A stretch of DNA of 43,130 bases from Verrucomicrobiota bacterium (GTDB lineage: Bacteria > Verrucomicrobiota > Verrucomicrobiia > Limisphaerales > Fontisphaeraceae): contig JBAXGN010000049.1 in assembly GCA_037139415.1 (NCBI GenBank), positions 1 through 43,130 of the forward strand, read 5' to 3'. Shown in pieces: positions 1 through 25,470 of this stretch. Position 1 is the first letter of the stretch; the number at the start of each line of letters is the position of its first letter. The notes under the pieces were generated by a model. The model was not told the DNA's origin. It ran no database searches and saw only the letters and a program-made list of their open reading frames with translations. The translations under genes and the position numbers were made by a program.

Positions 1-51
1 TTATTCAAAAACCTGCAAAAAATCCGCATTGTTAAGTCCGACAGGCTGCTA
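1..51. mobile_element. End of an insertion sequence (IS1182-like guess), lying to the left
   Basis: Positions 32-51 read TAAGTCCGACAGGCTGCTAG, the exact reverse complement of 42831-42850. A 20-bp exact match in one window is far beyond chance, and the right-hand copy sits beside a decayed transposase tail, so this is best read as a terminal inverted repeat. The orientation puts the element body left of the window. The last four bases, CTAG, are present at both ends and could be a preferred target or its duplication. Family assignment is inference. Confidence 0.6.
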
Positions 52-165
52 GTGGTGGTCACCAACGGCAGCCACGGCATCGGCGGCTGGGATAAGAAGA
101 ACCTGGAATACAAACCCCAACTCATCCGCTGGCTGAAAGCAAAACTCGCGCCCACCGGCAAGTGA
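1..165 (+). pseudogene. C-terminal remnant of an unknown, possibly alpha/beta-hydrolase-like, protein
   Basis: The frame is open from the first base to TGA at 163-165. Codons up to about position 51 fall in the IS terminus, so only the last ~37 residues (VVVTNGSHGIGGW onward, ending LIRWLKAKLAPTGK) are likely to be the original gene. The GSHG stretch followed by an amphipathic C-terminal helix resembles the catalytic-histidine end of alpha/beta hydrolases, but the piece is too short to identify. The gene was probably cut by the IS, or else is just a partial gene at the window edge. The next gene follows at once, so the two may once have been co-transcribed. Confidence 0.45.
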
Positions 166-1853: not shown

Positions 1854-2104
1854 GCGGAACACGTGTTCCATGGGATGGAACAAAGTTCCGGGGCATGGAA
1901 CATGTGTCTGGCCGCGTGAGACACATGTCTCACCGGTTGGGACATGTGTTCCGCCGGATGAGACAAGCTTCCATGGCGTGGAACACGTGTCTCGGCCCAT
2001 GGAACATGTGTCTCAGCCCATGGAACATGTGTCTCAGCCCATGGAACATGTGTCTCAGCCCATGGAACACGTGTCTCGGCCCATGGAACACGTGTCTCAT
2101 GGGG
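1854..2104. repeat. Array 1: about 12 degenerate 21-bp units, each centred on a 14-bp dyad
   Basis: Each unit carries a dyad built from half-sites GGAACA or GAGACA: GGAACACGTGTTCC (a perfect palindrome at 1856-1869), GAGACACATGTCTC (1918-1931), GGGACATGTGTTCC (1939-1952), GGAACACGTGTCTC (1980-1993). Near-identical units then start at 1999, 2020, 2041, 2062 and 2083. Dyad centres fall at about 1862.5, 1883, 1903.5, 1924.5, 1945.5, 1966, 1986.5, 2007.5, 2028.5, 2049.5, 2070.5 and 2091.5, a pitch of 20.5-21 bp. Half-sites vary while spacing is kept. It can be read as a heptapeptide repeat in several frames, which is a trivial result of 21 being divisible by 3. Confidence 0.85.
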
Positions 2105-2197: not shown

Positions 2198-2782
2198 TCA
2201 CTCCAACGTGTGGCCGCTGAAGGTGCACCTCGGCTTCACGCCGAGGCGATTCAGTATGTAAGTTCCGTTAGCCGGACAACTGGGAAGCACCTTAATATAA
2301 TTGGTGTAACCGATGAGATCGGTCATGGCCGGAGTATCATTGGTGGTCTTGCGGTATTCGAGCGCCCATTGTTCCTTCGCGCCATCGAGTTGGCGCAAGT
2401 TATTATAGCATGAACTGCGACTTACGTGATACCGAGGTCGGGTGTAAAAAAGGTAACCCAAGCCTACGATCACGGCGATACTGGTGGCACCCGTCCAGAA
2501 ACCAGTGAATGCGTTGGCGCGGCCTGAAACCGGTTCGGGCGAACTTCGAATCCGATAGACCGCGACGCGGGCTAACACAACCGCCGCCAAGCCAGCCACA
2601 AGCGACAGGAGGAACGGGATAATATACAACACCCACCGAACATCGTACAGTGTAACCAATTTTGGCAGGATGCACGCGATCCCGAGCGCGATCAAACTGC
2701 CGATCCCCAGCTCTTTGCTGAGCCGGGCCAGACGGCTGATGCGGGAAGCGTTCGCGGGCGCAGCGGGTTCGGTTTCTTTCAT
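2198..2782 (-). CDS. Small membrane protein: helical N-terminal half fused to a pseudopilin-like C-terminal domain (paralog 1)
   Basis: A 194-residue protein. After a polar start (MKETEPAAPANASRISRLAR) there are three hydrophobic segments (about residues 25-45, 50-75 and 95-112) in an arrangement like DUF4190-type membrane proteins, with the usual AVVLARVAVYRI stretch. The C-terminal ~75 residues carry the pattern NNLRQLDGAKEQWALE, then TPAMTDLIGY, CPANGTY and GHTLE, seen in prepilin-like proteins of Verrucomicrobia and Planctomycetes. No type IV pilin N-terminal helix or prepilin cleavage site is present, so the tail seems to have been joined to a membrane anchor. Paralog 2 lies immediately upstream on the same strand. 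The function is unknown. Confidence 0.7.
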   Translation of the reverse strand: MKETEPAAPANASRISRLARLSKELGIGSLIALGIACILPKLVTLYDVRWVLYIIPFLLSLVAGLAAVVLARVAVYRIRSSPEPVSGRANAFTGFWTGATSIAVIVGLGYLFYTRPRYHVSRSSCYNNLRQLDGAKEQWALEYRKTTNDTPAMTDLIGYTNYIKVLPSCPANGTYILNRLGVKPRCTFSGHTLE

Positions 2783-2846: not shown

Positions 2847-3422
2847 TCACTCCAACGTGTGACCGCTGATGGTGCAGGTGGGTTTGTTGGTCATGTTATT
2901 CAGCATGTAGATTCCGCCCTGGGGGCAATTGAGCGACCATTTCACGTATTTATCGGTGCCGACGAGATCGGTCATGGCGGGCGTATCCTTGCCGGTCTTG
3001 TGATTTTCGAGCGCCCATTGTTCCTTGGACCCGTCAAGCTGGCGCAGGTTATTGATGCATTGGCATTTGTAGTGATCGTGGGATTGAACCGGGAACAGTT
3101 GGGGGTGATACGCGAGGAATACCAGGCATACGGTTAGCAACCCTACCCAGTAGCCAACCCGCGCATGGGCCCGGCCTTCCATTGGTTCGGGGGACCGGCG
3201 AATCCGGTAGGCCGCAACCTCCGCCAGCACGACCGCTGCCAGACCAACCACAAAGGACAGATCCAGCAGCACCCCCAGCCATGACCCGCTCAGGCCAAAG
3301 CTATGTAGCATATATGGGGCACCAAGTAATACGATACTGCCAACCCCCAGTATCAGGCTGGCGCGGGCCAGGCGGGAGACGCGGGAGGCGTTCGCGGGCG
3401 CAGCGGGTTCGGTTTCTTTCAT
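2847..3422 (-). CDS. Small membrane protein with pseudopilin-like C-terminal domain (paralog 2)
   Basis: A 191-residue tandem paralog of the previous entry. The first 20 residues are nearly the same (MKETEPAAPANASRVSRLAR) and the C-terminal motif is retained (NNLRQLDGSKEQWALE, TPAMTDLVG, CPQGGIY, SGHTLE with paired cysteines). The membrane-spanning middle is much less conserved. ATG at 3422 lies at the same point of the duplicated block as ATG 2782 of paralog 1. The almost identical upstream DNA suggests shared control or recent gene conversion at the 5' end. A link to type II secretion or pilus machinery is only a guess from the C-terminal motif. Confidence 0.7.
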   Translation of the reverse strand: MKETEPAAPANASRVSRLARASLILGVGSIVLLGAPYMLHSFGLSGSWLGVLLDLSFVVGLAAVVLAEVAAYRIRRSPEPMEGRAHARVGYWVGLLTVCLVFLAYHPQLFPVQSHDHYKCQCINNLRQLDGSKEQWALENHKTGKDTPAMTDLVGTDKYVKWSLNCPQGGIYMLNNMTNKPTCTISGHTLE

Positions 3423-24494: not shown

Positions 24495-24963
24495 CCAAAA
24501 AAGTGCTGTAGTGGTTCCTAAAAGTCCCAAAACCATCGCCGAAACGGCCAAAAAGGGCACTCCGGGGTATATTTGGCCTCCCAGCCGTGCACCGACCTCC
24601 AAAACCTGTGCACCGACCTGCAAAACCTGTGCACCGACCTGCAAAACCTGTGCACCGACCTGCAAAACCCGTGCACCGACCTGCAAAACCCGTCCACCAA
24701 CCTGCAAAACCCGTCCACCAACCTGCAAAAACCGTGCACAGACCTGCAAAACCCGTCCACCAACCTGCAAAAACCGTCCACCAACCTGCGAAACCCGTCC
24801 ACCGACCTGCAAAAACCATCCACCGACCTGCAAAACCCGTGGACCAACCTGCAAAAACCGTGCACCGACCTCAAAAAGTGCTGTGGCGACCTCAAAAAGT
24901 GCTGTGGCGACCCATAAAAGTCCCGAAACCATAGCCAAAGAAGCTAAAAGGCGCACTTTGGAA
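24495..24963. repeat. Array 2: about 14 core 21-bp units (TGCA-phased) inside 21-bp flanking repeats
   Basis: Core units at about 24596-24880 have the form ACCTGCAAAACCTGTGCACCG, drifting to CCCGTCCACCA variants. Palindromic TGCA tetramers fall alternately 11 and 10 bp apart in intact units, one per helical turn. Both flanks hold related 21-bp segments: AAAAGTGCTGTAGTGG... at about 24500-24562, and AAAAAGTGCTGTGGCGAC twice plus a decayed copy at about 24884-24962, so the flanks form an imperfect direct repeat around the core. Long heptapeptide-repeat frames exist on both strands. Changes between units are frequently non-synonymous in each, so I do not call a gene. Confidence 0.85.
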
Positions 24964-25009
24964 GGTTTTGTGGCCACCTATCCCGCCGCCGTCCATTGCC
25001 ACAACCCCG

Positions 25010-25190
25010 TTTCAGGGGGCCCCGAAAGGATTTGGGGGCACCCCCGGAGAGTTTCTACGCCCCCTGAAAAGGTTTCGGGGGCCCCCAGAGAGTTTCAGCG
25101 GCCCCTGAAAATGTTCCGGGGCGCCCCGGAAGTATTTCTGCGTCCCCTGAAAACCTTTCGGGGAGCCCCCGGAGAGTTTGGGGGAGCCCC
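25010..25190. repeat. Array 3: nine dyads at 21-bp pitch, alternating TTTC...GAAA and GGGG...CCCC types
   Basis: Dyad centres are at 25018.5, 25039.5, 25060.5, 25081.5, 25101.5, 25122.5, 25143.5, 25164.5 and 25185.5: every step is 21 bp except one of 20. Examples are TTTCAGGGGGCCCCGAAA (25010-25027), GGGGGCACCCCC (25034-25045), TTTCAGCGGCCCCTGAAA (25093-25110) and the perfect palindrome CCGGGGCGCCCCGG (25116-25129). The first eight alternate between a TTTC/GAAA type and a G4-5/C4-5 type, giving a 42-bp super-unit. No coding reading is plausible. Confidence 0.85.
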
Positions 25191-25470
25191 GGAATATCAT
25201 TCCCAGCGCCAAGGAATCATCTTCGGCCCGCGGGAAACGGTTCCTGGCCGCCGGAATTTGGGGCAAGTGAGGCCAAAAACCAGGGGCTCGCCTGTAAATG
25301 AGCGCCCCGCCGCCTCCCGGCGGGTATCGGGACGCACCGGAATCTCCAGCCTCCTTGGGACTGCCCGGCGCGGACGGCGATCCCCCGACGCAATGGGAGG
25401 TGGGGACGAGTTTGAACCCGGTGAACGCAGGCTTGCAAGCGCAGCGACGACCGTAGCGGGTTTAGAAAGT
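25191..25470. other. Gene-free GC-rich stretch
   Basis: 280 bp between array 3 and the terminator of the minus-strand fucosidase/URO-D unit. Short open frames exist on both strands, but their composition follows the GC-rich DNA and shows no motif. A CCGCCTCCCGGCGGG imperfect hairpin at about 25308-25326 is the only structure noticed. Confidence 0.35.

Follow-up and report, generated by a model that had tools for sequence, protein, structure and literature searches.

Plasmid iterons and partition-site arrays consist of tandem sites spaced at about two helix turns and bound cooperatively on one DNA face; each such array is formed by one sequence and lies beside a replication or partition gene. 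The Bacillus-type LexA box has the form GAAC-N4-GTTC. Among repeats, REPs belong to sequence families that are dispersed and carry GTAG/CGTC tags (PMC3733652), and Borg tandem repeats are perfect and of varied unit length, about half of them intergenic and about half in genes (PMC9879509). We analysed a 43,130-nucleotide stretch of a Verrucomicrobiota genome (the window, contig C49 of a 7.9-Mb draft), which carries a row of short dyads at two-turn pitch that is probably one of dozens of intergenic arrays in the host genome.

Architecture of the array

The array nearly fills the 1778–2198 gap between two convergent genes, and is made up as follows (features without strand are given as unstranded):

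162–1778, + strand: upstream flanking gene, PQQ/BamB-like beta-propeller protein, stopping before the array (ORF; Pfam PQQ_2 8e-42)
1820–1853, unstranded: head of the element, CCCGAAAACGGGGGGTTGGGCACTTTGTTCCGAG, the approximate start of homology among three genomic copies (alignment of copies, BLAST)
1856–2098, unstranded: core array, 12 dyads, half-site GRRACA, 20–21 bp pitch (dyad listing, motif count, autocorrelation, column permutation)
1877–1889, unstranded: odd-centred 13-bp dyad GGAACAAAGTTCC, a 13-mer in three of three genomic copies
1960–1972, unstranded: odd-centred 13-bp unit GAGACAAGCTTCC with a weak dyad, a 13-mer in three of three genomic copies
1980–2098, unstranded: six near-identical units, GGAACAYGTGTCTC plus RGCCCAT (Tandem Repeats Finder, alignment of copies, dyad listing)
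2104–2190, unstranded: tail, a degenerate unit followed by CCAAAA/TTTTGG-type dyads in about the same 21-bp phase as the core; common to C122, absent from C80
2198–2782, − strand: flanking gene on the downstream side, convergent, encoding a small protein weakly similar to DUF4190 (ORF; 1.6e-4, below cut-off)

Twelve mirror-symmetric dyads start at 1856, 1877, 1897, 1918, 1939, 1960, 1980, 2001, 2022, 2043, 2064 and 2085, with start-to-start steps of 21, 20, 21, 21, 21, 20, 21, 21, 21, 21 and 21 bp. An earlier note on this DNA had counted about 12 operator-like dyads, and the count holds: nine of the 12 are exact matches to the strict motif GRRACANNTGTYYC, where shuffled sequence would give 0.01, with about seven to eight dyads independent because units 7–12 are near-identical recent duplicates. 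Its 21-bp unit centred on a 14-bp dyad describes ten of the 12 units, but those at 1877 and 1960 are odd-centred 13-mers, around which the pitch between centres is 20.5, not 21 bp, and two of the steps are of 20 bp. The further claim that dyad symmetry and a 20.5–21 bp pitch are both kept is borne out by steps of 20–21 bp and by a dyad score above that of column-permuted units (p about 0.02). Autocorrelation, a check proposed with it, reaches 0.97 at lag 21, and Tandem Repeats Finder returns two arrays, a 21-bp one at 1979–2099 with 95% matches and a weaker one of 20 bp at 1856–1907.

GGAACA and GAGACA make up most half-sites; the intermediate GGGACA also occurs, as does GAAACA in a paralogue, and GRRACA is the best notation for them. 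The dyad centres in 1856–2098 are mostly CG, TG or CA, and in the 14-bp dyads all of them are; these are equivalent to CpG or its transition products. These centres may represent CACGTG decaying through CpG transition, a possible hint of cytosine methylation.

The whole element spans about 1820–2190. The core lies inside the 1854–2104 extent first proposed, but homology starts earlier and phased CCAAAA/TTTTGG dyads, centred at about 2133, 2154 and 2174 (tail phase read by eye), continue later. Because these dyads prolong the GRRACA phase, the half-site letters change completely inside one array while pitch and symmetry persist.

Units 7–12 (1980–2098) are near-identical copies of one GGAACA/GAGACA unit, with mixed imperfect dyads, and read as recent 21-bp unit duplications; slippage is therefore part of the array's story. 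The proposal that the spacing reflects more than slippage alone gains some support from the constant pitch and the small number of indels, but is in part wrong given the unit-wise duplication that has clearly shaped the 3′ half. More broadly, such arrays could be a mutational by-product, in which hairpin- or template-switch-primed synthesis together with slippage would generate tandem palindromic units that then drift with no function. We give this origin a substantial, though minority, chance; the recent exact 21-bp expansions visible here are a point in its favour.

Paralogous small proteins with weak DUF4190 similarity (window 2198–2782 and 2847–3422; L046:10173–10634; L121:1020–1448) are encoded beside three different arrays, which represent two sequence types. 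The first 53 bp of the window (1–53) are common to the contig starts L099, L109, L122 and L145; they probably form one end of a multi-copy insertion element at which the assembly broke.

Paralogous copies and the strict motif

Two diverged copies of the array lie in other gene contexts of the same genome, at C80:19408–19677 (86% identity) and C122:12116–12419 (75%). The first seven units align one-to-one across all three; a single GGAACA/GAGACA unit is expanded to six in C49 and to four or five in C80, with one or two in C122. The C122 dyad score likewise exceeds that of column-permuted units (p ≤ 0.003). Among the three copies, 12 of 90 half-site positions vary (13%) against 17 of 69 in spacers and centres (25%; p 0.10), so that half-sites seem only weakly more conserved, a point against the protein-bound element that we favour below. 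Within the half-sites, positions 2–3 vary more than positions 1, 4, 5 and 6 (p 0.008).

In its strict form, an operator reading would make these sites the target of a single dedicated regulator that controls the adjacent genes, which we consider very unlikely. As would suit such a regulator, GRRACANNTGTYYC is in strong excess and nearly all of it lies in the three arrays: 24 of its 29 genomic occurrences are found there. The five that remain, however, do not exceed control (four for the reversed pattern), the genes on either side of the three arrays are unrelated (convergent pairs in two cases), and other arrays carry other motifs. An operator for a specific regulator is accordingly not supported. 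The strict motif pair is missing from 57 relatives of the order, which a mutational origin accommodates readily. DNA matches were absent from those 57 relatives, and none in genome or viral collections was credible; a single Prevotella match was taken as chance.

Period-21 arrays across the host genome

Autocorrelation at all lags over 1.64 Mb of the host genome (about 21%) gave, at a strict threshold, 14–15 regions at lag 21, 13 at lag 42, 11 at lag 63 and 0–3 at every other lag; the lag-21 count includes a period-7 array (L050) and a possibly coding array (L124:1–129), without both of which it is 12–13. Some single counts at lags 14, 28, 35, 49 and 56 fit the period-7 array in L050, which also feeds lag 21. 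Extrapolated by proportion, the whole genome would hold very roughly 80–90 such arrays. Two more lie in the window, the non-dyadic one directly preceding the dyadic one:

24585–24921, unstranded: second 21-bp array, CCGTGCACCGACCTGCAAAAC x 14, without significant dyad (p 0.42; Tandem Repeats Finder, column permutation)
25000–25206, unstranded: third array, 20–21/42-bp pitch, GGGGCGCCCC-type dyads (p ≤ 0.003; Tandem Repeats Finder, column permutation)

The consensus differs from array to array: GGACAAGACCTTGTCC (L130), CCAAACCNNGGTTTGG (L118), CAATCCN6GGATTG (L110), TCGTTCNGAACGA (L121) and CGGGGGGAAGTTCCCCCG (L138). Most arrays are private in sequence, as a mutational origin predicts, with a few small families (C49/C80/C122; L047/L130, to which L114 is similar; window 25000 and L116). 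Since the array families have no motif in common, standard motif searches would miss the class. Unit length is 21 bp in 185 of 217 unit steps (19 arrays), and the same arrays have accumulated about 1,040 substitutions but only about 29 deletion runs, a scarcity of indels that tells against slippage as the sole source.

A codon-model gene call, which marks 85.6% of the sequence as coding, places 20 of the 22 arrays wholly outside genes; of the two that overlap a prediction, at least one was itself called as the 'gene'. Flanking genes are convergent, divergent and tandem in comparable numbers. No common neighbour gene or regulator was found, the flanks comprising the PQQ protein, DUF4190-like proteins, purL, a GxGYxYP hydrolase and other unrelated families. 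The arrays at L114:14884–15250 and L130:17000–17160 each lie just upstream of a paralogous fn3-domain gene and share a similar GGACA/TGTCC dyad, although the arrays have diverged; arrays may thus be inherited with a gene. Period-21 repeats at three contig starts (L124:1–129, L132:1–109 and L130:53–164) look partly coding, with heptads such as ASADAAK, and apparently differ in kind from the dyad arrays.

Probable insertion-element ends with the terminus CATTTACACAATTATATTTACAAAACC occur at 17 places (L179–L195), of which five are inside 21-bp arrays. Arrays make up about 2.7% of non-coding DNA, giving p of about 7e-5 (0.003 if arrays are 6%), and this one element possibly has a target preference for them. 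That arrays tolerate its insertion agrees with a mutational origin.

Symmetry, reading frame and folding

We aligned the units of each array to a circular 21-column profile and compared them with permuted unit columns, a control that keeps composition and variability. Complementarity at the best dyad axis is 0.41–0.69, against a mean over axes of about 0.26, and symmetry exceeds the control at p ≤ 0.03 in 15 of 19 arrays, those inside one family not being independent. No significant dyad was obtained in the other four (window 24585, p 0.42; L116, 0.29; L124b, 0.29; L047, 0.09, marginal), which counts against our favoured reading. Column variability is itself mirror-symmetric about the dyad axis in 17 arrays (combined z 3.2; 3.3 when permuting within G/C and A/T columns). 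The best axis was chosen per array, a choice for which the column permutations allow and the mirror-symmetry test allows only via its own permutations. This symmetry would be expected of two-fold recognition and is awkward for a mutational origin; inverted gene conversion could be an alternative source.

The two halves of a unit pair at random: pooled over 19 arrays, 1797 pairs are observed against 1796.5 expected under permuted pairing. The earlier note had seen left and right halves varying independently in the window array, and the pooled count agrees; such uncoupling is also what a mutational origin would leave. A transcribed hairpin-array RNA, its units folding singly or as long nested helices, appears improbable for the same reason, pooled covariation being nil. 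On either strand the window array folds much more stably than its shuffled versions (z −8.5 and −6.9), but such folding is expected of any palindromic array. Coupling of paired halves does appear in a few arrays (L096 axis 2, z 3.9; C122, z 2.3). Many dyad centres, however, leave no room for a loop, the imbalance of G-T versus A-C, a potential RNA strand signature, mostly follows base composition, no Rfam family matches the window at its gathering threshold, and flanking genes have no uniform orientation. The array at L096:5882–6182 is the single one with strong coupling, including AATAAACCGTTTATT and ACCGTC...GACGGT pairs, and may be a structured RNA.

That the arrays encode heptad repeats (21 bp as seven codons) is hardly credible. 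Open frames do cross the window array, but variability lacks codon-phase bias in all 19 arrays, several arrays have stops in all frames, and frames are lost at units of 19 and 20 bp and in 41-bp arrays. The absent phase bias and broken frames contradict this reading, and sustain the initial judgement that the array is not coding sequence.

Arrays in related genomes

Four arrays built alike but unrelated in sequence are present in two relatives from other families of the order, three in G007 (41, 42 and 41 bp) and one in G009 (21 bp); they surfaced without a sequence-based search. Each G007 unit comprises two dyads at 20.5–21 bp, and dyads are significant in all four arrays (p ≤ 0.007 each). 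The 41-bp arrays, at 20.5 bp per dyad, match the turns of the helix but not the codon, of which 41 is no multiple. Slippage gives no evident reason for a 20.5–21 bp spacing everywhere, across genomes. About 200 kb of two same-family genomes contains no array where about 2.5 would be expected at host density, so absence there is not established.

Discussion

The recurring trait of the class appears to be pitch and symmetry, not letters. We tentatively favour an architectural role for the double-stranded DNA, with a dimeric protein of low sequence specificity bound to it, over a purely mutational origin or an RNA, because the two-turn pitch recurs in unrelated sequences and variability is mirror-symmetric about the dyad axis. 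The window array would then be one copy of a lineage-wide intergenic class, dyad rows spaced by two B-DNA turns (20.5–21 bp). New units arise through unit-wise duplication inside an array, as the sequence of units 7–12 shows, and pitch and dyads would then persist through recognition of the double-stranded DNA as an array. The reader would most simply be a dimeric, cooperative, nucleoid-type protein that binds half-sites independently along one helix face, and its likely effect would be on local chromosome structure or insulation between genes, not on control of a single promoter. The private sequence of each array is awkward for any single sequence-reading protein. Of the earlier cooperative binding-array proposal, the dyads, two-turn pitch, non-coding nature and independent halves are supported; its strict form, an operator for a specific regulator, is not.

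Extending this to a class found throughout the order, with helical pitch and two-fold symmetry conserved, sequence free at each locus, and the arrays as candidate binding sites of an undescribed chromosome-organising protein, is a more doubtful step. If confirmed, geometry rather than sequence would be what is kept, offering a handle on a new nucleoid protein or, alternatively, on a mode of replication by which palindromic repeats are laid down at a two-turn spacing.

The earlier note knew of no described system with this arrangement, and we found no published precedent in the open-access literature searched. Similarity to the LexA box is limited to GGAACAYRTGTTCC, which contains GAAC-N4-GTTC; many half-sites here are instead GAGACA, and they form arrays, not single operators. 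An SOS operator is not supported: GAACN4GTTC and TGTTCN4GAACA are absent from two lexA-like loci (L226/L227, the only SOS genes examined), and TGTTCN4GAACA occurs once genome-wide, equal to control. Like REP and BIME elements, the dyads are short intergenic palindromes, many per genome, but they form tandem two-turn-pitch arrays with private sequences (three copies for the window array), and GTAG, CTAC, CGTC and GACG do not occur in the core array (read directly). Iterons and partition sites share the tandem pitch of about two turns; here, in contrast, many unrelated sequences are scattered over the chromosome beside ordinary genes, with no replication or partition gene adjoining arrays among the flanking families examined. 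Borg repeats are likewise locus-specific tandem arrays of independent origins in one lineage, whereas those described here are imperfect, of a single pitch, dyadic and nearly all intergenic. Each described family compared fails at least one defining feature, and the element, with its dyads in constant helical phase, has the layout of a cooperative protein-binding DNA array.
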